Part shown: positions 992 to 60,487 of the stretch, piece by piece | Position numbering within the stretch: position 1 is the first letter of the stretch | Layout: every line of letters begins with the position of its first letter | Assembly: GCF_900102185.1 (NCBI RefSeq) | Contig: NZ_LT629690.1 | Coordinates: 4,216,001-4,280,000, forward strand | Direction: 5' to 3' | DNA: 64,000 bases | DNA from: Terriglobus roseus | GTDB lineage: Bacteria > Acidobacteriota > Terriglobia > Terriglobales > Acidobacteriaceae | Program-made: the position numbers and the translations under genes | The notes under the pieces: model-generated | Databases searched by the model: none | What the model was told of the DNA's origin: nothing | The model's input: only the letters and a program-made list of their open reading frames with translations

Positions 992-1228
992 GCTGTCAAG
1001 CCCCTTGACCACTCAAGCCCAACAAATCAAAGCAAATAGAGCTGGCATGTTATTTCCCCGAACTCACTAAAATAGAAACAGAAGAGAAAAGGGCCACGCA
1101 CGCGCGGCCCTAACTCCTTTAGAAAGACGATTTTGCCTCTAACCCCAATGGGCAGACGATTTTAGCGACATCCGCGCCGTAACCCCAATAGAAAGACGAT
1201 TTTAGAAAAACAGGGGGGAGGGGGTACC
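992..1228 (-). repeat. Dispersed repeat, copy A (three-unit element)
   Basis: First of three related 237-252 bp elements (others at 5237-5488 and 35518-35757). Read on the minus strand it has a GGTACCCCC / CCCCCCTG head, then three units with core AAAATCGTCTTTCTA ending in a GGGGTTA-like block, starting at 1203, 1163 and 1134 (steps of 40 and 29). A hairpin with GGGCC/GGCCC arms (1091-1110) follows, then a tail containing CTATTTTAGTGA, GGAAATAACATGCCA and CTTGACAG. The head touches the ruvA stop codon. On the minus strand the hairpin is followed by TTTTCTC, so this copy may act as the ruvA terminator. There is no coding potential. Confidence 0.85.
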
Positions 1229-4417: not shown

Positions 4418-5206
4418 TTACTTCTTCACCAGTGCGCGCGTTGCGCCTACTGAGATGCCGCCGTCGATCAGGATGGTCTGTCCTGTGACGTAGCGGGATG
4501 CTTCACTGGCTAGGAAGACTACTGCTCCGTCCAGATCGTTGGGTGCGCCGGGACGCTTCATCGGGATGCGTTCGACCAGATACTCAACCCAGCCTTCATC
4601 CTCATACATGGCCTTGTTCTGGTTGGTCTTGAACCATCCGGGCGCGAGGACGTTGACGGTGATGCCGTGCTCGCCCCAATCGTCTGCGAGTGACATGGTG
4701 AGTTGCTTGATGCCGCCGCGGCTTGCGCCATATGGTCCAAGTCCAGCGGAGCCACGCACGCTGGTTACGGAACCCACATTGATGATGCGACCGTAACCCT
4801 GTGCGATCATGTGTCGTGCAATGGCTTGTGCCACAAAGAAGGGGCCACGCAGATTCGTGTCGAGGATGGCGTTCCAGTCATCCCATGTGACTTCCAGCGC
4901 GCGCTTGCGGATGTTCATGCCTGCGTTGTTGACCAGGATGTCGACCTTGCCGAACTGCTTTGGTGCGGCTTCTGCGAATGCCTTAATGCTGGCTTCATCG
5001 CGTACATCGAGCACGAGAGCCTTTGCTTCGATGTTCATCGCTGCAAGCTCTGCAATGAACGCATCGCAATCGCCGGCCTTGCGCGATGTGACGATCAGCT
5101 TCGCTCCAGCACGACCGAGAGCGCGTGAGAAGTATTGTCCTAGACCGCGGGATGCGCCCGTCACAACGGCCACTTGGCCGGTTAGATCAAACAAGTTTTC
5201 TGCCAT
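4418..5206 (-). CDS. SDR family sugar dehydrogenase with Arg in place of catalytic Lys
   Basis: A 262-residue classical short-chain dehydrogenase close to gluconate 5-dehydrogenase or glucose 1-dehydrogenase-like enzymes, which interconvert keto and hydroxy sugar acids with NAD(P)H. It has TGASRGLG near residue 16, NNAG near 92, the active-site Ser in INVGSVTS (about 144) and PYGASRGG near 159. In classical SDRs the last motif is Y-x3-K; here codons TAT GGC GCA AGC CGC give Y-G-A-S-R, so the catalytic Lys is Arg. The C-terminal ASRYVTGQTILIDGG is standard. The gene ends opposite the MFS carrier and its start lies 30 bp from repeat copy B. Activity may be changed or lost, although Arg could retain partial function. 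Confidence 0.9.
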   Translation of the reverse strand: MAENLFDLTGQVAVVTGASRGLGQYFSRALGRAGAKLIVTSRKAGDCDAFIAELAAMNIEAKALVLDVRDEASIKAFAEAAPKQFGKVDILVNNAGMNIRKRALEVTWDDWNAILDTNLRGPFFVAQAIARHMIAQGYGRIINVGSVTSVRGSAGLGPYGASRGGIKQLTMSLADDWGEHGITVNVLAPGWFKTNQNKAMYEDEGWVEYLVERIPMKRPGAPNDLDGAVVFLASEASRYVTGQTILIDGGISVGATRALVKK

Positions 5207-5236
5207 CTTTTCTCTCTCGCCTGCAGGTGCCGGGCG

Positions 5237-5488
5237 GGGGTACCCCCCTCCCCCTGTTTTTGCAAAATCGTCTTTCTAAACGGGTTACGGTTTTAGTGTC
5301 TGTAAAATCGTCTATCTATTGACGTTAGAGGCAAAATCGTCTTTCTAAAGGGGTTAGAAGCAGCGAGTCAGCAGGTCAGCGAGTGAGCTAGTTCGTTCGC
5401 TACTTCTATTTTAGTGATTGAGCGGAAATAGCATGCCAATTCTATTTCTTTTGATTTGTTGGGTTTGAGTGGCTTTGGGGCTTGACAG
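5237..5488 (+). repeat. Dispersed repeat, copy B (three-unit element)
   Basis: A 252-bp element in the orientation opposite to copy A. The head GGGTACCCCCCTCCCCCTG is followed by units with core AAAATCGTCTTTCTA (middle unit TCTATCTA) beginning at 5264, 5304 and 5333 (steps of 40 and 29, exactly as in copy A). Where copies A and C carry a GGGCC hairpin, this copy has an unrelated insert (5358-5402) with a weak AGCGA/TCGCT inverted repeat. The tail (CTATTTTAGTGA, GGAAATAGCATGCCA, TTGATTTGTTGGG, CTTGACAG) is conserved. Most of the 308-bp gap between the SDR and the Zn-dependent dehydrogenase is this element. It has no coding potential. Confidence 0.9.
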
Positions 5489-5514
5489 GATTGTATGGAC
5501 CCCTCGCCTGCGAC

Positions 5515-6552
5515 CTATTCGTTTGGAGCCACCACGACCTTCAGCAAACCCGCCTCACGCGCGTGCAGGCGATCGAAGTAGTTCGCTGCATTTTCGAGTG
5601 ATGAAACTGCTGAGATGAGCGGCTTCACTGTGATTGCGCCGCTTGCCATCAGGCGGATTGCTTCGGGATATTCGCCAGCGGAAGCGCATGATCCCTGGAG
5701 ACGAACTTCGCGTGTGACGACACGTTGCAAGGGCAGCGGTACTTCCGGCTGAATGTTGCCGATGAGTGTGACTGTGCCGCCGCGGCGTACGCATTCGATG
5801 GATGCGACGACAGTTTCACCGCGACCGACTGCTTCGAGCACAACGTCAACACCTTCGCCGCCGGTGCGCTTCAGTACTTCGTCGATCAGTTCTTTGCCGC
5901 TCATGTGAAGCGTGTCGGGGATGCCTACTTCTTCGGCCATCTTCAGGCGTGCCGCATCGACGTCTGCAATCATCACGGACCTGCATCCCTTAGCGCGTGC
6001 AGCCTGTGCGGTGAGCAGACCGATCATGCCTGCACCGATGACGAGAGCGGATTCTCCGCCCTTCATCTTGGTTACATTCACGCCGTGCAATGCGATGGAG
6101 ACAGCTTCCAGCATCGCGGCTTCTTCCATGGGGAAGTCTTCGGGCAGGCGATAGAGAATGCGCGCGGGAACGCTGACGTATTCGGCAAACGCACCGTGGC
6201 GGCGGAACTCATTGCATGACACGCCGACGACCTGGCGGTTGTTGCAGAGATTCACTTCGCCACGCTGACAGTAGTCGCACTTGCCGCAGTAGACGGTGGA
6301 GTCAAAAGTGACGCGGTCGCCGGGCTTCCACTCCGTTACGTCAGCGCCAACCTTTTCGATCACGCCTGCGGCTTCGTGGCCCATGATGATGGGAGGAATG
6401 CGGCGTCCGCTGCTGCCGTCGTAACCGTGTACGTCGCTGCCGCAGATGCCACACGCACCCACGCGGATAAGAACCTCTTCCGAGCCAATCTCAGGCACCG
6501 GAACATCCTTGACCTGCAGCTTTGAATACTCTTCCAGCATCAGCGCTTTCAT
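5515..6552 (-). CDS. Zinc-dependent polyol/threonine-type dehydrogenase (MDR family)
   Basis: A 345-residue medium-chain dehydrogenase of the sorbitol/galactitol-1-phosphate dehydrogenase group, oxidising secondary alcohols of sugars with NAD(P)+. The catalytic zinc ligands are Cys in GACGICGSDVHGYDG (about 38) and the His-Glu pair in MGHEAAGV (about 62). The structural zinc site is the four-Cys cluster CGKCDYCQRGEVNLC (about 92-106). The Rossmann motif is GAGMIGLLTAQ (about 170). Start ATG 6552 was chosen over the longer frame because MKALMLEEY is the family N-terminus and GAGGG precedes it by about 8 bases. The neighbouring SDR and Gfo/Idh/MocA genes suggest a sugar or polyol oxidation block. 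Substrate not defined. Confidence 0.9.
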   Translation of the reverse strand: MKALMLEEYSKLQVKDVPVPEIGSEEVLIRVGACGICGSDVHGYDGSSGRRIPPIIMGHEAAGVIEKVGADVTEWKPGDRVTFDSTVYCGKCDYCQRGEVNLCNNRQVVGVSCNEFRRHGAFAEYVSVPARILYRLPEDFPMEEAAMLEAVSIALHGVNVTKMKGGESALVIGAGMIGLLTAQAARAKGCRSVMIADVDAARLKMAEEVGIPDTLHMSGKELIDEVLKRTGGEGVDVVLEAVGRGETVVASIECVRRGGTVTLIGNIQPEVPLPLQRVVTREVRLQGSCASAGEYPEAIRLMASGAITVKPLISAVSSLENAANYFDRLHAREAGLLKVVVAPNE

Positions 6553-35517: not shown

Positions 35518-35757
35518 GGGTGACCCCTCCCCCTATCATTTCGCAAAATCGTCTTATTGTGGGAGTTACGGTTGGGGTATCCCCTAAAATCGTCTTCTGA
35601 TTGGGGTTAGGGGCAAAATCGTCTTTCTAAAGGAGTTAGGGCCACACTGAGCGTGGCCCTAACCGGCACTACTTCTATTTTAGTGATTTGGCGGAAATAC
35701 CATGCCAACTGTATTTCTTTTGGTTTCTTGTGGTTACGTGGTTTGGGGGCTTGACAG
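35518..35757 (+). repeat. Dispersed repeat, copy C (three-unit element)
   Basis: A 240-bp element. The head is GACCCCTCCCCCT and the units begin at 35545 (AAAATCGTCTTATTG), 35586 (AAAATCGTCTTCTGA) and 35615 (AAAATCGTCTTTCTA), with steps of 41 and 29. A perfect hairpin follows: GTTAGGGCCAC (35635-35645) and GTGGCCCTAAC (35653-35663), 11 bp with a 7-base loop. The conserved tail is CTATTTTAGTGA, GGAAATACCATGCCA and CTTGACAG. It occupies the gap between the mutarotase start and the GAF gene; only 35758-35851 remains outside it, with nothing recognised. Confidence 0.9.
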
Positions 35758-49230: not shown

Positions 49231-49570
49231 TCAGGCTTTGATATATCACCCTGTTGCCAATGTGGTTTTGACTCTGTCGAAAGCGGTGCGCCAGTTCCGT
49301 GGATTTAGGGCGCGTTTTATGCGGTTCCTTTCAGGGCACAAAATGTCCGATTTGGGCGTTGCACCAAAGATGGTGAAGGACTACGCTTTTTGCTATCCCG
49401 TTTCTGTTCACGGGATGTTCACATAACGGCCCCGCTGGCGTCTTACCTTCCCCCGATATGCAAGGAAGATAGCCGGCCCCCCACTTGCGCCGACTGGTCC
49501 ACGGAAATCCCGATGGTCTCAGCAGCGTTTGACGGTCCCCTTAGCAGTAACACTTCTGGAGGCAGTACCC
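49231..49570. other. Intergenic region before the receptor array
   Basis: 340 bp between mscS and the first receptor. It should hold the receptor promoter. No riboswitch, T-run hairpin or paired palindrome was found. A ribosome site GGAGG lies just before the receptor ATG. Confidence 0.4.
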
Positions 49571-52500
49571 ATGATGAATCGCAGGACGCAGAGCGCCTGT
49601 TGGGGCTTAGCCCTGATTGCGCCGCTCGCACTTTCCGCCACACTTGTCGCGCAGGACGTGAGTGGCTCCATTTCCGGTACCGTGCGTGATGCCAGCGGCG
49701 CCGTTATTCCCAATGCCACGGTGAAACTGACCAACACGGATCGCAACCTGGTGGTTCGTACGTTGAACACTGGCGGTTCCGGAACCTACAGCGCCCGTTC
49801 CCTTCCCCTGGGCAACTACACGGTTGAGATTGCTGCTCCGAACTTTGGCACGCAGACCGTCACCGGCGTTGTGGTGCACGTGAACGATTCGCTGACGATC
49901 AACGGTGATCTGAAGGCAGGCGGCGGCAATGAAGCTGTGACCGTGACCAGCGAACAGCAGTCCATCAACCTGGAGAATGCGACGCAGGCCGGTTTGATTA
50001 ACGGCACGCAGGTGCGCGAACTGGTTCTGGGAACGCGTAACTATGAGCAGCTTGTTGGATTGCAGCCCGGTGTTTCCTATTCCGGTGGCGACCAGATCTA
50101 CATTGGCAACAGCAGCCCGAATGGCGCGACGAACGTTGTGAACTTCAGCGTGAACGGCGCGCGTACCAGTGGCAATGCGTGGACTGTGGATGGTGCGGAT
50201 AACGTGGACCGCGGATCGAACTTCACGTTGCTGACCTATCCCTCGGTGGATGCGATTGCCGAGTTCAAGACGTTGCGTGGACAGTACTCCGCAGAGTTTG
50301 GACGCAGCGCGAGCGGTCAGATCAACGTGGTGACCAAGAGCGGCACGAACAGCCTGCACGGCAGCGCGTACGAGTTTGTTCGCAACGATGTGTTCAATGC
50401 GAACGATGTATTGAACAAGTTGACGACGACGCCTGCGGGTGCGTCGAAGACGACGAGCGCACGCAGCAAGCTGCGTTACAACGACTTTGGTTACACCATT
50501 GGCGGACCGCTGTTCATTCCGAAGGTGTATGACGGCCGCAAGCACAAGACATACCTGTTCTTCTCGCAAGAGATTCGCCGTGTGATCACGTACAAGCCGG
50601 TGACATTGACCGGTGTGCCAACGATTGCTGAGCGTGGCGGAACGTTTGCTGCACCTGTCTGCGTGGCTGTGAGTCCGACTGGAACCTGCACGACGCAGAA
50701 CACGCGTGTGACGAATTTCAGCCCGCTGGCGCAGGCGTATGTGAAGGACATTTACGCCGGTGTGCCTGCGCCTGATGCTTCGGGAACGCTAGTGACGCCG
50801 CCACTGCAGAACATCTTCAATGCGAACCAGCAGATTGGCCGCGTTGATCAGAGCTTTGGCGATAAGGTGCAGGTGTTCTTCCGCATCATCAATGACAGCA
50901 TTCCCACGGTAGAGCCGGGCGGCCTGTTCCAGGGCTCGGGATATCCGGGTGTTGGCACGACGGCGACGAATGCACCTGGCCGTATCTATCTGGGTCATGC
51001 AACGTGGGTGATCTCGCCGACGTGGCTGATGGATGGTGGCTATGCGTTCTCGCAGGGCGCGCTGCTGAGCGATCCGATTGGATCGATGCGGAACTCGGCA
51101 TCGCCGGATGTGGCGGCGTTGGTTAAGCTTCCTTACCAGTCGTCATTGGCGCGTGTTCCGGGCCTGACGTTCACGGGTGGAACTGGCCTGGCAACGTATG
51201 GTCCGTATCGCGATTACAGCCGCAATCACAACATCTTCCTGAACGTGACGAAGACGCTGGGAGCGCACACGCTGCGCTTTGGTGCGAACTACAACCACTA
51301 TGAGAAGAAGGAAAACAACGCCAGCGCAAATGCGGGTTCGTTTGCGTTTACCGATGCGGGTGTGCCGACGGGGCAGCAATCGTATCGACAGAGCTGGGCG
51401 AACTTCCTGACGGGCTTTGTCACGACGTTCTCGCAGGCCAGCTATGACGTGACGCCGGACATCAAGGTGAACCAGTGGGAAGGCTACTTCCAGGATGACT
51501 GGAAGGCGACGCCGCGCCTGACGGTCAACCTGGGTATTCGTTACTCGAAGTTTGCGCAGCCGATCGATGCGAACCATCAGTTGACGACGTTTGATCCTTC
51601 GCTGTATGTGGCGGCGAATGCTCCGACGATTGATACGACGAACGCCGGCAACCTGTGCGTAGTGGGTGCACCATGTACGGGAGCGACGCCGAATCCGAAT
51701 GCGAACCGGTTGAACGGTATCAGCATCAACAGCGGTTCAAGCCAGGCAGCTACGTCTCCTTATGGAAACAAGGTGGGCAAGAGCGACAACCTGAACTTTG
51801 CTCCACGCCTGGGCTTTGCCTATGACGTGTTTGGCAATGGCAAGACGAGCGTGCGTGGTGGTTACGGCATTGCGTATGATTCGTCGCTGTTCGGTATCTA
51901 CGAACAGAACATCTTCCAGAACATTCCCTATGTGCAGACGCCCACGATTTCGAACACGAGCTTCGATAATCCTGCGGCTGTGTCAGCGAATGTGAGCTAT
52001 GCGGCGCCGGTGTTGCGTGCAACATCGCCGAAGTTCCGCACGCCGTACAACCAGCAGTTCTCGCTGGGTGTGCAGCAGTCGCTGGGCTGGGGTGTGACGA
52101 CGGACGTCAGCTACGTGGGTAGCCACCAGGTTCACCTGATTGGTCTGGTGGACATTAACCAGCCTGCACCGGGTGCGTTTGCTACACCCACCGTGGGTAC
52201 GCCGAGCGGTGGTTATTACACGATCAATACGACGACGATTAACAAGATTAACCAGATTCGTCCGTATCGCGGCTATGGCGTGATCAACAGCGTCCAGCCC
52301 ATCTTCGACGGTAACTACAACTCGCTGCAGATTGGCGGACGCAAGTCGTGGAAGCACGATTCGCTGGTGAGCGTGAACTATACGTGGTCGCGCGCGCTGA
52401 CGAATGCGAATGCTGACCGTACCGGCGCACCGCAGATTTCGTCGCGCACGGACCTGGAATATGGCCGCAGCGCTGCGGATCGTACGCACATCTTCAACTT

Positions 52501-53059
52501 CAACGCGGTGTATGCACTGCCGTTCTTCTATGACCAGAAGGGCTTTGTGGGCCATCTGCTGGGAGGATGGGAGGTTTCGGCGCTGGGTTACTTCAACAGC
52601 GGCCTGCCGCTGGGTGTGACCACCAGTGGTCTTGATCCGGCGGGCGTGGGCGTGATCGTTTCGTCCAGCGCTGCGAGCGGACGTCCGGACCAGGTGGCGA
52701 ATCCGAACGTAGCAAGCGCGACGAGCGGGCCGATCCACACACGGCAGCACTGGTTCAACATCAACGCTTACCAGGCAGTTCCGCTGGGCCAGTATCGCGG
52801 CGGCAACTCGCAGCGTAACGGTGTGAACGGACCGGGATGGTGGCGTGTTGATCCGGGTGTGTTCCGGAACATTCGCATCTGGCAGGAAGTGAACCTGCAG
52901 CTTCGCGGCGAAGCGTTCAACATCTTCAACCACACCAACCCCGACACCATCAGCACCAGTGGCCTGATCACGGCGAGCGGTTACAGCGCCACGGCAGGCA
53001 ACATCACGGGCTATCGTGACAAGCGCATCCTGCAGCTTGGTGCGAAGCTGGTGTTCTAA
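49571..53059 (+). CDS. Oar-like TonB-dependent receptor 1
   Basis: About 1162 residues. The signal peptide (MMNRRTQSACWGLALIAPLA ... VAQ) is followed by a carboxypeptidase-regulatory-like domain (SGSISGTVRDASGAVIPNAT, about 33-110) and a plug with a TonB-box-like QAGLINGTQVRELVLGTRNY. After NVVTKSGTNSLHGSAYEFVR the chain is an outer-membrane barrel with many aromatic-ended strands (YFQDDWKATPRLTVNLGIRY; SVNYTWSRAL) and ends GYRDKRILQLGAKLVF, with the expected terminal Phe. These receptors import large nutrients using TonB energy; substrate unknown. ATG 49571 follows GGAGG. A terminator ends the gene. Confidence 0.93.
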   Translation: MMNRRTQSACWGLALIAPLALSATLVAQDVSGSISGTVRDASGAVIPNATVKLTNTDRNLVVRTLNTGGSGTYSARSLPLGNYTVEIAAPNFGTQTVTGVVVHVNDSLTINGDLKAGGGNEAVTVTSEQQSINLENATQAGLINGTQVRELVLGTRNYEQLVGLQPGVSYSGGDQIYIGNSSPNGATNVVNFSVNGARTSGNAWTVDGADNVDRGSNFTLLTYPSVDAIAEFKTLRGQYSAEFGRSASGQINVVTKSGTNSLHGSAYEFVRNDVFNANDVLNKLTTTPAGASKTTSARSKLRYNDFGYTIGGPLFIPKVYDGRKHKTYLFFSQEIRRVITYKPVTLTGVPTIAERGGTFAAPVCVAVSPTGTCTTQNTRVTNFSPLAQAYVKDIYAGVPAPDASGTLVTPPLQNIFNANQQIGRVDQSFGDKVQVFFRIINDSIPTVEPGGLFQGSGYPGVGTTATNAPGRIYLGHATWVISPTWLMDGGYAFSQGALLSDPIGSMRNSASPDVAALVKLPYQSSLARVPGLTFTGGTGLATYGPYRDYSRNHNIFLNVTKTLGAHTLRFGANYNHYEKKENNASANAGSFAFTDAGVPTGQQSYRQSWANFLTGFVTTFSQASYDVTPDIKVNQWEGYFQDDWKATPRLTVNLGIRYSKFAQPIDANHQLTTFDPSLYVAANAPTIDTTNAGNLCVVGAPCTGATPNPNANRLNGISINSGSSQAATSPYGNKVGKSDNLNFAPRLGFAYDVFGNGKTSVRGGYGIAYDSSLFGIYEQNIFQNIPYVQTPTISNTSFDNPAAVSANVSYAAPVLRATSPKFRTPYNQQFSLGVQQSLGWGVTTDVSYVGSHQVHLIGLVDINQPAPGAFATPTVGTPSGGYYTINTTTINKINQIRPYRGYGVINSVQPIFDGNYNSLQIGGRKSWKHDSLVSVNYTWSRALTNANADRTGAPQISSRTDLEYGRSAADRTHIFNFNAVYALPFFYDQKGFVGHLLGGWEVSALGYFNSGLPLGVTTSGLDPAGVGVIVSSSAASGRPDQVANPNVASATSGPIHTRQHWFNINAYQAVPLGQYRGGNSQRNGVNGPGWWRVDPGVFRNIRIWQEVNLQLRGEAFNIFNHTNPDTISTSGLITASGYSATAGNITGYRDKRILQLGAKLVF

Positions 53060-53439: not shown

Positions 53440-56400
53440 ATGAGTATGTTCACTAAGAGGTCACACCTGGCGCTATTCGCGTCAGCAGTATTGGTAGGCA
53501 GCGTTACAGCAGGCGCACAGACGTACCGCGGCGGTATTGGCGGCACGGTTGTAGACGCTTCGGGCGCAGCCATCCCACAGGCAAAGATTGTTCTGAAGAA
53601 CACGGAAACCGGCGAAACACGTACGACGAACAGCACGCAGGCCGGCACCTATGTGTTCCAGGATCTACAGCTGGGTACTTATGCGGTGACGATCTCCGCG
53701 CCTGGCTTCGGCGATTTGACCCTGAACAAGATCGATGTGAACCCGGGTGCGGTGACTCCGGCGAACGGCAAGATGTCTGTTGGTACATCGGAGGTTGTGG
53801 TCGATGTGGCTGCGGATACTACCTCTGAGATTCAGACGTTGTCGTCGGCGAACAACGCCGTTATTGGAAGCAAGGCCGTTTCGGAAATTCCTCTGAATGG
53901 TCGTAGCTTTACCTCGCTTCTGACGTTGGCTCCTGGTTATAACGCAAACGGCTCCTTGAACGGCGCCCGCAGCAACCAGATCAATTACCAGATTGACGGT
54001 ACGGACAACAATGACATCTGGCAGGGCGGCACGGCCGCTAACCAGGGCGGCGTTGGTCCCATCGCAGGTGTAACCCTGCCCATTGAAGCGATCGACCAGT
54101 TCTCGATTCAGTCATCGGGTAACGCAGAGGTCGGTCACAGCGCCGGCGGTCTTGTTTCACTGGGCTTGAAGACCGGTACGAATAGCTTCCACGGCTCGGC
54201 CTACTTCTACGGTCGTAGCGAATTCTTCGCGGCGAATGACTTCTTCGCCAAGACCGGTGCGCGTAAGACGAAGACCCGCAACCAGCAGTTTGGTGGATCG
54301 ATTGGCGGACCGGTTTTCAAGGACAAGCTGTTCTTCTTCACCAACTATGAGCGTCAGGCGTACGGCATTCAGCTCTCCAGCAACTCGCTGACGGAGCCCG
54401 GTGCGGCTTATGTGACGCAGGCTACGCAGTTGCTGGCGCGTCACGGTGTCAACTCAGTCAATCCGCTGTCGGTGAATTTGCTTCAGAACCTGTGGGCGGG
54501 TGGTAATGCCGCGGGACTTGCTGCGAACACCAACAACTATGTCGAGACCCACCAGCGGCATGGTTACAGCGATAACTTTGTGGGGAACCTGAATTACATC
54601 CTGTCGCCGAAGCAGACGATTCGTCTGCAGGCCTTTGTCGGCACTGGACGCCAGGCAGAACCCGCGAACAGCACCAGCACCTACTGGTATTACCAGGTGG
54701 CTCCGGATATCACGCAGAGCTTCTCGCTGTCAGATAACTGGGCACCGACGGATCGCCTGTCGAACCAGGTGATCATTGCAACCGGTATCTTCAACCAGAC
54801 ATTCAACGATCTCCGTCACGACTTCAACATGCCGGGCCTTGGTCTGAACACCGGCGTGACGAGTCCGGCGCTGTTCGGTGCTCCGTCCATCACGATGGGC
54901 AGCTTTGACACCGTGGGTGTCACGCAGCCTCTCGGACGTAAGGATTACACCGGCCACATCACCGATGCAGCAACGTGGGTGAAGGGTGCGCATCAGATCC
55001 GTTTCGGTGGTGAGTTCCGTCGCAGCTACATCGATCTGCAGTATCAGAGCGGTGTGCGCGGCAACTTTACCTTCAACGGATATGCTTCGCAGAACACGAC
55101 CCTTGGAGCTGGCGTAACTGGATGGTCTTCCAGCAAGACGACGGCACAGGTGTGCGGTACGCCAAACGCGACAGCTACGGCGAGCTGCGGTGGCGTCAAT
55201 GACTATAGCTACATCGGCTCACACAACGAAGTGCTGGCGCTGGCGGACTTCCTGAACGGTAGCTATTTCTCGGGATCGTTCGTGCAGGGCAACCTGCGTC
55301 GTGATCTGTACAGGACCGATCTGTCTTTCTTCCTGCAGGATCAGTTCAAAGCGACATCCAAGCTGGTGCTTAACTACGGCGTCCGGTATGACTACTTCGG
55401 AGCACTTTCATCCACCGGTCCTCTATCCATCTGGCGTCCCGGTGCCTCGGGTGCAGATGCGAACGGCCTGATCAGGGTCGGTACTCCTGGAAGTCCCTCC
55501 ACCTATAGCCCGAGCAAGATCAACTTCTCTCCGCGCGTAGGTATCGCCTACACGGCTACGGACAAGCTGGTGATCCGCGGCGGCTATGGCCTCTACTTCG
55601 ACGCGCCGCCGTTCAATGGCTTTGGTAACAACGGCAGCATCGCCACCGGTAGCACGGCGACTGGTCTGCAGGCCAATCCATTTGGCGGTGTGCAGAACGT
55701 GTCTCTGGGTGTAGGTACATGGCAGACGAACCAGTATGTCTGGGCAAGTGCTGCTGGCGCCTCCAACTACGGTTTGTTCTCCATCAATCCGAATCTGAAG
55801 ACGGCCTATTCGCAGACCTTCAACCTGGGCACGGAGTATCAGCTCAGCCGCAATACCGTTGTCACTCTGGGATATGCCGGTTCCACTGGAACTCACCTGT
55901 ATGGTCTCCGCGATGCGAACCAGGCTGCGCCGGGCGTAGGTACCTCGGCTACGGCTCTGATTCCACGCCGTCCTTGCTACATCAATAAGTGTGTTGCTAA
56001 CTACGCTTCCATCGGCCCCGTGCAAGAGGTTGCGAGCTGGGGCGCATCGAACTTCAACTCGTTGCAAGCGACGATCAAGTCGAACAACTGGCACCATCTG
56101 ACCAGCCAACTTTCCTGGACCTATGGCCATTCGCTGGATAATGGTTCGGGCTTCCGCAGCACCGGCCCGATCGATTCCAACAACCTTGGCCTGGACTACG
56201 GAAACGCCACCTTCGATATCCGTCACACGTTGAATGGATATCTTGTGTGGGAAGCCCCGCAGTTCACGAAGCATCTTGCTCCGTTGACCGCAGGTTGGCA
56301 GACGACGCTTAACGCTCAGCTTCACACTTCGGCCCCCATCAACATCACCGTCGGCGATAACACCGGCCTCGGTATGAACAACAAGGACCGTGTTAACTAC

Positions 56401-56784
56401 AACGGCGGCGTCTATAAGACAGGCAGCCGGAACATTCAGACCAACCCAGACGGCAGCAAGTTCATCCAGTATTGGGCCACTGCCGCAGCAAATTCGGTCA
56501 TTAGTGTTCCAACCTATGGATCGCATGGTAACGTGGGCCGCGACTTCTTCCGTGGACCTGGTTTCTATGTTGTCGACGCAGCACTGGCGAAGAACACGAC
56601 GATCTATGAGAACGTCAAGTTCCAGTTCCGTGCGGATCTGTTCAACCTGTTCAACATCCTGAATCCGAATACGCCGACGACATCCGTCTCGAGCAATACG
56701 TTTGGTCAGATCTCGGGCGCTCCGACCGGTATTTCTTCGGGTGCTCCGTTCAACGTACAGTTCGCCGGAAAGATCATCTTCTAA
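53440..56784 (+). CDS. Oar-like TonB-dependent receptor 2
   Basis: A 1114-residue paralog of the flanking receptors. The signal peptide is MSMFTKRSHLALFASAVLVG ... GAQ. The regulatory-like domain starts YRGGIGGTVVDASGAAIPQA and includes GTYVFQDLQLGTYAVTISAP. The plug contains AVSEIPLNGRSFTSLLTLAP, the hallmark IPLNGR segment. The barrel runs to the C-terminal PFNVQFAGKIIF, with Phe last. AGGAG precedes ATG 53440. It shares the KSGTNxxHG-type turn (LKTGTNSFHGSAYFY) with the others. Substrate unknown; it would depend on TonB at 26214. Confidence 0.93.
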   Translation: MSMFTKRSHLALFASAVLVGSVTAGAQTYRGGIGGTVVDASGAAIPQAKIVLKNTETGETRTTNSTQAGTYVFQDLQLGTYAVTISAPGFGDLTLNKIDVNPGAVTPANGKMSVGTSEVVVDVAADTTSEIQTLSSANNAVIGSKAVSEIPLNGRSFTSLLTLAPGYNANGSLNGARSNQINYQIDGTDNNDIWQGGTAANQGGVGPIAGVTLPIEAIDQFSIQSSGNAEVGHSAGGLVSLGLKTGTNSFHGSAYFYGRSEFFAANDFFAKTGARKTKTRNQQFGGSIGGPVFKDKLFFFTNYERQAYGIQLSSNSLTEPGAAYVTQATQLLARHGVNSVNPLSVNLLQNLWAGGNAAGLAANTNNYVETHQRHGYSDNFVGNLNYILSPKQTIRLQAFVGTGRQAEPANSTSTYWYYQVAPDITQSFSLSDNWAPTDRLSNQVIIATGIFNQTFNDLRHDFNMPGLGLNTGVTSPALFGAPSITMGSFDTVGVTQPLGRKDYTGHITDAATWVKGAHQIRFGGEFRRSYIDLQYQSGVRGNFTFNGYASQNTTLGAGVTGWSSSKTTAQVCGTPNATATASCGGVNDYSYIGSHNEVLALADFLNGSYFSGSFVQGNLRRDLYRTDLSFFLQDQFKATSKLVLNYGVRYDYFGALSSTGPLSIWRPGASGADANGLIRVGTPGSPSTYSPSKINFSPRVGIAYTATDKLVIRGGYGLYFDAPPFNGFGNNGSIATGSTATGLQANPFGGVQNVSLGVGTWQTNQYVWASAAGASNYGLFSINPNLKTAYSQTFNLGTEYQLSRNTVVTLGYAGSTGTHLYGLRDANQAAPGVGTSATALIPRRPCYINKCVANYASIGPVQEVASWGASNFNSLQATIKSNNWHHLTSQLSWTYGHSLDNGSGFRSTGPIDSNNLGLDYGNATFDIRHTLNGYLVWEAPQFTKHLAPLTAGWQTTLNAQLHTSAPINITVGDNTGLGMNNKDRVNYNGGVYKTGSRNIQTNPDGSKFIQYWATAAANSVISVPTYGSHGNVGRDFFRGPGFYVVDAALAKNTTIYENVKFQFRADLFNLFNILNPNTPTTSVSSNTFGQISGAPTGISSGAPFNVQFAGKIIF

Positions 56785-56840: not shown

Positions 56841-57133
56841 CTTTCTATCGCTCTGTTCCGGTTTGGGAATGTCTCACGATGTTGTGTCGCACATGCGGTG
56901 CAATGCTATCCGTGTGCAAGAAAAATATGAAAGTTACTTAACTTTATCTCTTGCGTCACGGGACGTTAACGATTACTGTGGGCCTATCGTTCAACCTTTT
57001 TCACCGGAATTACGTTCCGGGACTGCGATGTGCTGTGTTTCTTACAGCGCAAACGCTCTCTTGTATCTGCCCACAGGCGCAGGCTGCACAGACGCCATTG
57101 GGCTGAACTTTGCAGGACCTCAGGGAGATTCAG
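56841..57133. other. Upstream region of receptor 3
   Basis: 293 bp without a gene. A perfect palindrome CCGGAA-N5-TTCCGG sits at 57004-57020, comparable in layout (6-N5-6) to the one before receptor 2 although the sequence differs. It may be a regulator site. Confidence 0.45.
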
Positions 57134-60100
57134 ATGACCATGTATTCGAGGAGCAGCCGTTTTTCTTTCGGCAGGCGTGGCAGCATTGCATTGGCAACTT
57201 CAGCTGTTCTCATCGGCAGCGCTGTTGCAGGAGCTCAGACGTTTCGTGGAACGGTGAGCGGTACGGTTACTGACAGCACAGGCGCGATCGTTGCGAATGC
57301 TTCGGTGGAGTTGAAAAATCCCGCAACAGGTGCGGCGATTCAGAGCAAGACAAACGGTGCGGGTAACTATAGCTTTCCGGAAATTGCTCCGGGCAAATAT
57401 GAGTTGACGGTAAGTGCTCCTGGTTTTGCGACGCGCAAGGTTTCGGACATTGATGTGCAGGTGACGAAGGTTGCCACCATTGATGTGCCATTGAGCGTTG
57501 GTGCAGAGAGCACGATTGTGGACGTTGCTGCTGGCAACACGGTCTCGCCTGATACGGAATCAAGCGCACTGGTGACAGTGGTTGATAACAAGGCTGTTGC
57601 GGAACTGCCGTTGAATGGCCGCGACTTCACGCGACTAGTGCGTTACTCGCCGGGTGTGGCTGCACTCTCGAACTCGGTGAATGGTTCGCGTACAGCGTCG
57701 ATCAACTTCCAGGTGGACGGCGCGGATAACGTAGATGCGTGGCTTGGCATTGTGGCTTCGAATCAGGGCGGTATCGCGAGCGTTGCAGGTGGTCTGATTC
57801 CGATTGAAGCGATCGATCAGTTCTCCATGCAGAGCGGCGGCGCTGCCGATCAGGGCCGTAATGCTGGCGCGAACAGCAACATGGTGTTGAAGTCCGGTAC
57901 GAACAATCTGCACGGCGACGTGTTCTACTTCGACCGCAACGAGTTCTTCGCTGCTATCTCGCCTGTGGCCCCTGTGGGAAGCCGCAAGCAGTTCCTGCGC
58001 AATCACCAGGGCGGATTTACGTTGGGTGGTCCAGTGTGGAAGGACAAGACGTTCTTCTTTGTTGCTGGTGAAATTCAGATTGCGAAGATCAACACTGCTC
58101 TGACGGATACGGTGCTGACCGACTCATGGATTTCGGGTGCAACATCGTTCATGAATGCGTGGCGTGGCGGGCTTGCGACTTCGCCAGGGGTGAGCCAGCT
58201 CAGCACGAATCTGTATGGCTTGCTATTCCCTGCGAATTCCAAGGGCGGCGCTGCGACGACGAGCAACTACTTTGCTCAAGGAACGACGAATTACAACTCA
58301 TACAACGGCATCATCAAGCTGGACCAGCATTTTGGTGAGAAGAACACGCTGAGCGTGCGCTATCTGGGCACCACTGGTAAGCAGACCGCGCCGACGGGTT
58401 CGTATTATGCGGACTACTATCAGACCGCACCGATGCACATCCATAACTTCTCTGTTGTGGACAACCACATCTTCAGCAGCAAAATCTTGAACCAGTTGAC
58501 GTTGGGCGTGAACTACTTCCTGCAGACGTTCAATGATGCGAATCAGAACTTCTTCCCACAGGCGAAGGCTGGTTTGAACCTGGGCATCACAAATCCGATT
58601 GTGGCGCAGGGCGCACCGACTATCAGCATCAGCAGCTTCGATATCACCGGCGCGACGCAGCCTTCAGGACGTACCGACGTAACGGGTCACATCACGGATT
58701 CACTTCACTGGACGCTGGGACGTCACCAGTTGGTATTTGGTGGTGAGTATCGCCGTGGCGATATCAACCAGCTTTACTTCTCGTCGTCGCGTGGCACGTT
58801 TAATTTTGATGGCACGCGTGGCCCGTGGTTCCGCGCCACGAATGGTACGGGTGCAACAGGTTCCACGTGCAATGCCAACTCGCTGACGTATGCGGCAAGC
58901 CTTGGCTTCAATACTGCTTCTGCATGCAACAACCTGGCGTACATTGCGGACTTCCTTGCAGGCCAGCCGACGGCATCGTCCGGTGCACGACTGTTGCAGG
59001 GTAATGCGCAGCGCGTGTGGTTGATGAACACGGAAGAGGCATGGGTCGCAGACACCTTTAAGGTGAATCCGAAGCTGACGTTGAACCTGGGGGTGCGCTA
59101 CTCGGTTCCAGGCGTAATTCATTCGCAGGTGGATGACACGTACAGCTTCCGTCCAGCGAGTGGCTCGAATGCGGCAGGCTTCTACAAGCCGATGTACAAC
59201 CAGTACTACGCTTCGGTTGCACCGCGTATCGGTTTTGCATACTCGCCACGTGAAGACAACTCCACTGTTATTCGCGGCTTTGTCGGGCGCTTCTACGATA
59301 CGGTTGCGATGAGTGCGTTCGCCTCGGGCACTACGGGCAATGGCGGTGCAGCGTATTCGCAGAACAATCCTGCGGGTCCCGATGCAGCTGCTATCTATAT
59401 CAACAATGCAGTGAGCTGGCAGGTAAATGTGAATCCATTCGTTGGAGCGGCTGCTCCCACGGTTGGTGCTGTTGGTGTCGATCCGAGCATCCGCATGCCG
59501 TATGCGGATGAGTTCAACCTGAACATTGAGCAGCAGGTGAGCAAGAAGACGCTGATGACGGTTGGTTACGTTGGAACGCTCGGCCGCAATCTGCTTACTT
59601 ATTTCGATCTCAACCAGCCGCTTGCCAGCGGATCGACAACCTACAACGCTCGTCCTTACGCGACGCAGACCTCGTTCGTGAATGAGAATGCAGCGTTCGT
59701 TGGCGGTGCGTTGCAGGGCATCAATCAGCTTCGCGGATCTGCCACATCAAACTACAACGCGCTCCAGGTGAGCGTACGTCAGGCTGATTGGAAGGGCTTT
59801 TCTGGAAACCTGAACTACACATGGAGCAAGTCCATGGATACTAGTTCTGCAACCGGAACGCCGATGAACAGCTATAACCTGAAGGCGGATTACGGCCCGA
59901 GCACGTTCGATGGTCGTAACAACCTGAACGGATATGTCTTCTATACGGTGCCACAGTTCTTCCATGCGATGCCACGCGTGACGAAGGGCTTCCAGTTGAA
60001 TGCGTCGTTCCAGTACTCGTCGGGTCTGCCGTTGAGCCCTACGGTGAGCACGGACAACAGCCGCACGTACCAGCTGAAGGATCGTCCGAATGTGAACGCC

Positions 60101-60487
60101 GGAGTGAATCCTTATACGGGTCTGCAGTTGTCTACCAGCACCAGCAGTGGACGGCAGTATCGCTGGATGCAGAATGCTGGAGCATTTACTGCGGCTCCTG
60201 TTGGTACTTACGGTAACGAACGTCGTGATGCGTATGTTGGTCCGAACTTCCGCACGATTGACTTCTCTCTGTTCAAGCACACGCCGATCACAGAGAAGAT
60301 CAACACGGAGTTCCGTGCTGAGGTATTCAACATTTTCAACTTCAACAACTTTGCCAGCCCGAGCGTAAGCAATATCAGCAGCAGCACGTTCGGCCTGATC
60401 ACCAATACGCGTAACGGTGCATCGGCTCCGGGTATCGGATTTGGCGAACCGTTCAATGTGCAGTTTGCCTTCAAAGTTACTTTCTAA
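57134..60487 (+). CDS. Oar-like TonB-dependent receptor 3
   Basis: About 1117 residues. A signal peptide (RRGSIALATSAVLIGSAVAG, AQ) leads to the regulatory-like domain (FRGTVSGTVTDSTGAIVANA; NYSFPEIAPGKYELTVSAPG). The plug has AVAELPLNGRDFTRLVRYSP, then SNMVLKSGTNNLHGDVFYFD. The barrel contains VADTFKVNPKLTLNLGVRYS and ends PFNVQFAFKVTF. It is nearer to receptor 2 than to receptor 1 in the plug and C-terminus. ATG 57134 follows AGGGAG by 8 bases. The downstream M28 peptidase begins about 120 bp later, beyond a terminator-like hairpin. Confidence 0.93.
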   Translation: MTMYSRSSRFSFGRRGSIALATSAVLIGSAVAGAQTFRGTVSGTVTDSTGAIVANASVELKNPATGAAIQSKTNGAGNYSFPEIAPGKYELTVSAPGFATRKVSDIDVQVTKVATIDVPLSVGAESTIVDVAAGNTVSPDTESSALVTVVDNKAVAELPLNGRDFTRLVRYSPGVAALSNSVNGSRTASINFQVDGADNVDAWLGIVASNQGGIASVAGGLIPIEAIDQFSMQSGGAADQGRNAGANSNMVLKSGTNNLHGDVFYFDRNEFFAAISPVAPVGSRKQFLRNHQGGFTLGGPVWKDKTFFFVAGEIQIAKINTALTDTVLTDSWISGATSFMNAWRGGLATSPGVSQLSTNLYGLLFPANSKGGAATTSNYFAQGTTNYNSYNGIIKLDQHFGEKNTLSVRYLGTTGKQTAPTGSYYADYYQTAPMHIHNFSVVDNHIFSSKILNQLTLGVNYFLQTFNDANQNFFPQAKAGLNLGITNPIVAQGAPTISISSFDITGATQPSGRTDVTGHITDSLHWTLGRHQLVFGGEYRRGDINQLYFSSSRGTFNFDGTRGPWFRATNGTGATGSTCNANSLTYAASLGFNTASACNNLAYIADFLAGQPTASSGARLLQGNAQRVWLMNTEEAWVADTFKVNPKLTLNLGVRYSVPGVIHSQVDDTYSFRPASGSNAAGFYKPMYNQYYASVAPRIGFAYSPREDNSTVIRGFVGRFYDTVAMSAFASGTTGNGGAAYSQNNPAGPDAAAIYINNAVSWQVNVNPFVGAAAPTVGAVGVDPSIRMPYADEFNLNIEQQVSKKTLMTVGYVGTLGRNLLTYFDLNQPLASGSTTYNARPYATQTSFVNENAAFVGGALQGINQLRGSATSNYNALQVSVRQADWKGFSGNLNYTWSKSMDTSSATGTPMNSYNLKADYGPSTFDGRNNLNGYVFYTVPQFFHAMPRVTKGFQLNASFQYSSGLPLSPTVSTDNSRTYQLKDRPNVNAGVNPYTGLQLSTSTSSGRQYRWMQNAGAFTAAPVGTYGNERRDAYVGPNFRTIDFSLFKHTPITEKINTEFRAEVFNIFNFNNFASPSVSNISSSTFGLITNTRNGASAPGIGFGEPFNVQFAFKVTF

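Follow-up and report, generated by a model that had tools for sequence, protein, structure and literature searches.

The chromosome of the soil bacterium Terriglobus roseus, a single contig of 4,851,966 bases (4.85 Mb; genome G000), carries a family of at least 44 dispersed, intergenic copies of an element of about 240 bases. The conserved blocks of each copy are under purifying selection in place, and the two ends of the element differ in their surroundings: a gene lies a short distance from the head, and replacement of the DNA beyond the tail has been far more frequent than at gene boundaries nearby. The explanation favored here, held tentatively and at somewhat less than an even chance, is that the element is a polar boundary module that would act as DNA, in which a bound three-site array and a terminator hairpin would provide insulation and portable homology. 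If the selection documented below is correctly read, the family would show that bacteria can maintain a dispersed repeat copy by copy and that such a repeat need not be parasitic.

Architecture and neighbors of the element

Three copies, designated A, B, and C, lie in the window, the stretch of 64,000 nucleotides that was analyzed. They had been described in a first-pass annotation, and reading of the sequence bears out their positions, their strands, and the spacing of their units, whose measured starts lie 40 and 29 bases apart in copies A and B and 41 and 29 in copy C (Table 1). The ending GGGGTTA ascribed to the units in that account is not general, as GACGTTA, GAGTTA, and others are also found. 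A count of copies, which the annotation had put forward as a check, revealed a family larger than three: whole copy B, used as a BLAST query against its own genome, returned 41 matches at E ≤ 1, with the closest paralogue at E 2.9e-66; one copy accounts for two of these matches, as separate pieces. The 24-base unit pattern AAAATCGTCTnnCnAnnnGnGTTA with ≤2 mismatches matches 131 sites in the genome and none when written backwards, and it is this genome-wide test that excludes chance, not the count in the window alone, where a 15-base core with ≤3 mismatches gave 13 matches vs 9.3 expected (sd 3.0), which is not above chance. Forty-four copies were retrieved, and at least one more unit site lies outside them at 4358129, for a total of about 45.

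Read from head to tail, the element consists of a C-rich head, which mostly carries a GGGGTACCCC-type palindrome; unit 1, followed by unit 2 at a distance of 40 or 41 bases and unit 3 at a further 29; a variable hairpin that is mostly G+C-rich and often followed by a T-rich stretch; and a tail of conserved blocks with CTTGACAG as its terminus, the unit array stopping some 90 bases short of that end. The pitch is (40,29) in 36 of the 44 copies, (41,29) in five, and (40,28) in one; one four-unit copy has a pitch of (40,29,29), its additional unit again at 29, and the remaining copy is (41,29) with a spurious extra unit call. Loss of this pitch in other genomes, which the annotation had named as an outcome that would tell against it, is not what was found, since (40,29) or (41,29) recurs in 38/40 copies of the near species G013 and in 29/33 copies of G007. 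The hairpin after unit 3 folds better than 95% of shuffles in 28/44 copies; the 16 without a significant hairpin include copy B. Several candidate features inside the element were rejected: a hairpin within the units, which shows no Watson-Crick pairing covariation; pairing of the C-rich head with the G runs of the units, which by eye is not conserved; and a small tail protein read from a conserved ATG, for which the third codon positions of the frame (set by eye) are conserved and neither the start nor the stop codon is retained.

Table 1. Features of the three element copies in the window (window positions; G000, this genome; G013, a near species)
Feature	Position	Strand	Remark
Copy A, whole element	993..1228	-	head adjoins ruvA stop codon; tail towards TetR gene 256-963
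Copy A unit 1	1180..1203	-	sequence read, genome-wide pattern match
Copy A unit 2	1140..1163	-	40 from unit 1
Copy A unit 3	1111..1134	-	29 from unit 2
Copy A terminator-like hairpin, 9 pairs, then T-rich	1090..1111	-	by chance, one such site also expected in 0.8 of shuffles
Copy A -10-like TAAAAT	1068..1073	+	strand opposite to units
Copy A tail end CTTGACAG	993..1000	-	DNA past tail end unlike between G000 and G013
Copy B, whole element	5236..5488	+	head 30 bases from start codon of 4418-5206 (minus)
Copy B C-rich head, GGGGGTACCCCC palindrome	5236..5255	+	
Copy B unit 1	5264..5287	+	pattern match
Copy B unit 2	5304..5327	+	sequence read
Copy B unit 3	5333..5356	+	pattern match
Copy B hairpin region	5357..5405	+	MFE -14.4, equaled by 24% of shuffles; not significant
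Copy B -10-like TAAAAT	5408..5413	-	strand opposite to units
Copy B tail end CTTGACAG	5481..5488	+	right flank same in G013
Copy C, whole element	35518..35757	+	head at start of aldose 1-epimerase gene (minus)
Copy C unit 1, degenerate	35545..35568	+	
Copy C unit 2	35586..35609	+	41 from unit 1
Copy C unit 3	35615..35638	+	29 from unit 2
Copy C hairpin GGGCCACACTGAGCGTGGCCC	35639..35659	+	
Copy C -10-like TAAAAT	35677..35682	-	strand opposite to units
Copy C tail end CTTGACAG	35750..35757	+	in G013, ~1.2 kb extra ahead of the same right-hand gene

Genes on the head side are aimed at the element in 26/44 copies (p = 0.29 vs half) and away from it in 18/44, B and C among them, orientations that are only approximate because gene calling relied on a home-made rule of codon positions and two callings, one of which erred at some loci, disagree at several (L005, L006, L009, and L044). 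In 17 of the 26 the distance between stop codon and head is -3 to 17 bases. The proximity of two copies to sugar-metabolism genes, to which the annotation had drawn attention, stands for those copies themselves (B adjoins the 5' end of a short-chain dehydrogenase gene and C that of the aldose 1-epimerase gene) and does not extend to a general link: the 44 head-side neighbors match 67 Pfam families. The 25 that are listed, among them ThiC, IMPDH, MetH, GcvT, biotin carboxylase, DNA ligase, and L28, are matched by a single member apiece, and NCBIfam yielded one family matched twice. A replication-strand bias was considered and dropped: 28/44 copies lie on what is presumed to be the leading strand, the places of origin and terminus being guesses based on a skew that is noisy. 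Also in the window, three large plus-strand ORFs stand in series at 49529-53059, 53440-56784, and 57110-60487 (1114-1176 aa).

Distribution and maintenance of the copies

Within the genus the element is patchy. A slightly looser unit pattern finds 141 sites in G000, 141 in G013, 97 in G007, and five in G005, and 0-1 in each of the remaining 15 genus members searched. Across the family, a pattern of two units at the 29 pitch with ≤2 mismatches occurs in 67/398 genomes and 14/79 genera (backward control, 0), which is probably an undercount, as so strict a pattern necessarily misses diverged members. An exact-match scan of 84,980 species genomes returned 12 stretches. Ten come from acidobacterial records, which include Edaphobacter lichenicola M8UP30 (twice), one Granulicella MAG, and several Acidobacteriaceae MAGs; the other two, in Aquimarina and Bacteroidales, by eye lack the rest of the element. 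One scan of viral contigs with the two-unit pattern gave no matches. No description of such an element was found among open-licence PMC titles and abstract openings on acidobacterial intergenic repeats and hotspots.

In genomes G359, G418, G081, and G073, from each of which about seven copies were read, the head, the units, and the hairpin are present again and the letters differ; the CTTGACAG tail end is found in most G359 copies and some G418 copies. The unit core varies by genome (AAAATCGTC, AAATTCGTC, AAAGTCGTC, AAAATATTC, AAAATCTTG), and clades differ in the letters at positions 4 and 7 of AAANTCNTC. Among 70 pairs of units 2 and 3 from the same element, the G000-G013-G007 group excluded, the two units agree at position 4 with a frequency of 0.86 vs 0.48 expected and at position 7 with 0.74 vs 0.36, while mid-unit positions vary near-independently. 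Such joint change is what would be expected if each element has one binding specificity, and it offers a means of tracking down the putative protein that binds.

The copies are older than these species, as indicated by head-side flanks held in common: a flank matched at an element was found for 36/44 copies in G013, 27/44 in G007, and 41/44 in either. To estimate constraint, column classes were set on G007 copies only and mismatches were counted in 19 G000-G013 pairs that keep both flanks. Alignment A1 omits L031, L035, L039, and L040. Conserved block columns mismatch at 72/1786 (4.0%) and variable filler columns at 285/1105 (25.8%), and four-fold synonymous sites in the flanking genes differ at 1938/8676 (22.3%). 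The blocks thus change at about one-sixth the rate of synonymous sites of these loci (p = 2e-92), an estimate that is blind to copies decayed past detection, and the filler changes at roughly the synonymous rate, variable columns lying slightly above four-fold sites (p = 0.011). Paralogues within the genome differ at 7.7% of conserved and 54% of variable columns. From the slow blocks and the near-synonymous filler it follows that every copy is kept by selection at its own site, and the proposal in the first-pass annotation that conserved spacing speaks for an array and against decay is upheld.

Exchange of DNA beyond the tail

Neither polarity nor exchange of tail-side DNA figured in the annotation. 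In many G000-G013 pairs likeness runs up to CTTGACAG and gives way to unrelated sequence. The tail side has changed by at least 500 bases in 13/36 pairs and the head side in 0/36, the pairs being defined by the head-side flank. Seventeen had been scored as changed at first, one of them wrongly (L031, whose right side is alike over a short stretch), and three others (L017, L018, L028) differ by only 300-500 bases, hence the count of 13; p values were computed for 13 and 16. The background, taken from 112 kb in ten neighboring region pairs that are the same ten regions as the loci read rightwards (below), is five gaps of at least 500 bases per 110 predicted genes (p = 6e-6). Accessory genes differ above background within an interval flanked by conserved genes (13/36 vs 5/110), as at a hotspot. 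In G007 the tail-side flank is alike in 10/27 pairs, with no tail-only match, and the head-side flank in all 27, on which the pairing is based; short right flanks at L031-L044 reduce the tail-side matches, mostly in this count. The head-tail asymmetry may in part reflect the little room between gene and head.

Ten loci, a non-random set made up of nine of the 13 changed ones and L036, were read 15 kb rightwards. Synteny returns at all ten, and at the nine changed loci the longer insert measures 1.1 to 6.5 kb. Likeness ends within about 5 bases of CTTGACAG at 7/9 changed loci and extends some 40-60 bases past it at L015 and L020. The insert genes include a set resembling arsR, arsM, an ACR3-type pump, and arsC, of which Pfam supports the methyltransferase and an SBF-family transporter, as well as an APH-family kinase, sulfatases, TetR, GntR, and LysR regulators, and an eCIS-core protein. 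At locus L037 the G000 side (L224) carries an AriA/AriB-like pair (PARIS), and the G013 side (L234, by L151) an AlbA_2/Schlafen-type gene, candidate PDC-S50; the neighbor of the latter gene encodes 592 aa without a match. No recombinase was recognized among 42 predicted insert proteins from 13 stretches (20 assessed by Pfam, the rest by eye), nor among the recurrent neighbor clusters inspected by eye (984 predicted proteins, 210 loci), and five one-sided inserts, compared by eye at their far ends, showed no common sequence.

Similar breaks occur in a second genus. In a small sample of nine pairs chosen there for like unit strings, three have a break no more than about 60 bases from the tail end, and no pair has one at the head; one 0.7-kb insertion there starts directly after CTTGACA. 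A REP-like repeat, CACTTCGTGCNGTTCTCGACGCCTTCGGC, is found at 16 places in G000 (e.g. 1688076, 1753914, 3981662, and 4736081) and starts 0-2 bases past CTTGACAG in L006, L007, L019, L020, and L034, as if this repeat, too, lands at the tail end.

The elements themselves are mosaic. In the initial set of 17 changed pairs, which is wider than the 13 finally counted, identity at variable columns falls from 0.82 in unit 1 to 0.70 in units 2-3, 0.63 in the hairpin, and 0.59 in the tail; in the 19 kept pairs units, hairpin, and tail are flat at 0.71-0.75, and arbitrary pairs of copies stand at 0.43-0.51. The head is short and noisy (0.57 and 0.61 in the two pair classes). At several loci identity switches sharply within the element, for example from 0.92 to 0.21 in L035 and from 1.00 to 0.33 in L011. 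These patterns suggest that crossovers inside the element may bring in new tail-side DNA. Resident copies also recombine with one another: two tail-only matches, L002-L128 and L026-L145, represent right sides swapped between copies, and L002 combines the left side of G013 L136 with the right side of G013 L128, so that the elements also mediate rearrangements. The flank combinations of L002 and L035 vs L136 and L128, and of L025 and L026 vs L145, exchange right-hand sides.

Candidate explanations and known systems

As a boundary module the element would work as follows. A sequence-specific protein would bind the three units as an array, and the hairpin would stop transcription leaving the head side; binding of the units, for which the fixed pitch and the co-changing letters speak indirectly, and termination at the hairpin are each judged likely. 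The module would insulate the head-side gene, and the tail side, it is proposed, would be tolerated as a landing place because that gene is insulated. The dispersed conserved blocks would supply portable homology for homologous recombination, such that incoming DNA bearing an element and its cargo could recombine inside a resident element and join the chromosome elsewhere further to the right. Since only 26/44 head-side genes are aimed at the element, termination of the head-side gene is not the role of all copies. Counting against a boundary module, most relatives in the genus do without the element, which is odd for a needed insulator, and the opposite-strand -10-like hexamer is left without explanation.

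The sharp end of likeness near CTTGACAG has a competing reading, an unlikely one, in which the element is a docking (attachment) site: the units would be arm-type sites of a putative recombinase, crossover would occur at CTTGACAG, and circles of cargo would insert site-specifically at the tail, as in an integron though at dozens of solitary sites. The breaks at seven of the nine changed loci, the second repeat that begins just past the tail end in several copies, the insertion directly after CTTGACA, and the tyrosine recombinase genes in 16/16 genomes searched all agree with this. Yet the far ends of the inserts share nothing visible by eye, no recombinase was recognized in the inserts, integrases are equally present in element-free genomes, and the mosaicism points to crossovers within the element. 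A dead parasitic repeat of the MITE or BOX kind, frozen after an ancient spread, would account for a dispersed, intergenic, patchy family that is frequent in only three genomes of the genus, and the pneumococcal BOX, RUP, and SPRITE repeats are regarded as parasitic (PMC3049150). Selection in place is not expected of dead copies, however, and the slow blocks beside near-synonymous filler are not the signature of unconstrained evolution; in a reading by eye of the 44 copies themselves no terminal inverted repeats or target duplications were seen, and no recurrent partner gene was recognized. This already weakened reading is quite improbable.

Two further rivals begin from the hexamer in the tail. 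On the strand opposite to the units, TAAAAT, TACAAT, or TAGAAT occurs in 42/44 scored copies of G000, 33/36 of G013, and 17/19 of G007, a tally biased upward because copies entered it only if the block around the hexamer could be located; TATAAT/TATACT-like hexamers stand at the corresponding place in G359 (by eye). In a regulon, which also strikes us as an unlikely account, a tail promoter with this -10-like TANAAT beside a dyad would fire headwards, the units would be operator or leader sites, and head-side genes would be regulated or antisensed. Against it, there is no normal -35, and a sigma-70 promoter scan returned nothing in copy A and one unrelated weak site in L242; the head-side gene is aimed away in only 18/44 copies, with no family shared among those listed, and tail exchange would go unexplained. 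The hexamer and the hairpin are compatible, too, with a non-coding RNA gene or family on either strand, in which the units would be binding motifs in single-stranded form and the hairpin would act as the terminator, and the first-pass annotation had entertained a structured RNA. Several results count against that suggestion: RNAalifold gives -4.26 kcal/mol over 40 sequences with a covariation term of -0.09, the structure is limited to the variable hairpin, Rfam (Rfam 15) has no match in the window at gathering scores and none at E ≤ 1 in 5200-5520, the units lack pairing covariation, and 44 copies are many for one RNA. An RNA is accordingly very improbable. In L242 a hairpin is visible by eye that a terminator scan missed.

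Several known systems offer partial parallels. BOX of Streptococcus pneumoniae, RUP, and SPRITE (PMC3049150) are likewise short, modular, dispersed intergenic repeats limited to a few related species; in BOX a module (boxB) can be repeated, as a unit is in the one four-unit copy here, and SPRITE is terminator-like. BOX and RUP, which were judged parasitic (PMC3049150), differ in their terminal inverted repeats and target duplications, features not seen by eye here, and the present element differs from them in its fixed pitch, its selection in place, and its use of one end as an exchange point. Hotspots of gene transfer that lack mobile elements (Oliveira et al. 2017, PMC5635113) resemble the present loci in accessory turnover at one core-gene interval without a recombinase; in contrast, a specific repeated element here borders many intervals and is itself mosaic. 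Many hotspots of gene acquisition have neither recombinase nor explanation in the same account (PMC5635113). In the corresponding intervals here, one border is marked by a repeated sequence that can be seen and is under selection, and each genome has dozens of such copies; what makes a site receptive becomes testable by deleting or moving one element. It is doubtful whether one may go further and envision a chromosome-wide docking system of the Acidobacteriaceae, in which dozens of fixed and actively maintained sites with a clade-specific recognition code, a dedicated protein being bound to each, would permit gain, loss, and exchange at the tail of accessory operons that have no mobile element of their own.

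Among recombination platforms, the integron attI/attC system likewise gains its genes next to a short, recombination-like sequence and always on one side of it. The present family departs from it in its dozens of solitary sites, multi-operon inserts, absence of an array, and lack of a recognized adjoining integrase, in keeping with the absence of a recognized recombinase from the 13 insert stretches and the recurrent neighbors. Tn7/Tn5053-type ends carry arrays of TnsB/TniA sites, several direct 20-odd-base sites at unequal pitch, as the element does, and the tail read outward resembles TGTCA-type ends; here, in contrast, only one such 'end' was seen, and the array lies about 90 bases from it. 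TnsB/TniA (PF09299, Mu-transpos_C) was rejected as a partner, being found in 3/16 genomes and absent from G000, G013, and G005. REP/RAYT systems likewise pair dispersed intergenic repeats with Y1 genes, which occur in 15/16 genomes. They differ in that, at ten Y1 loci, units were present only where an element was nearby (4/10) and none directly flanked a Y1 gene, so a RAYT link was discarded; by eye, the Y1 genes at these ten loci are flanked by other palindromic repeats. At L264, L265, L268, and L269, Y1 (RAYT-type) genes, with their own palindromic repeats adjoining, are no more than about 2 kb away from an element tail.
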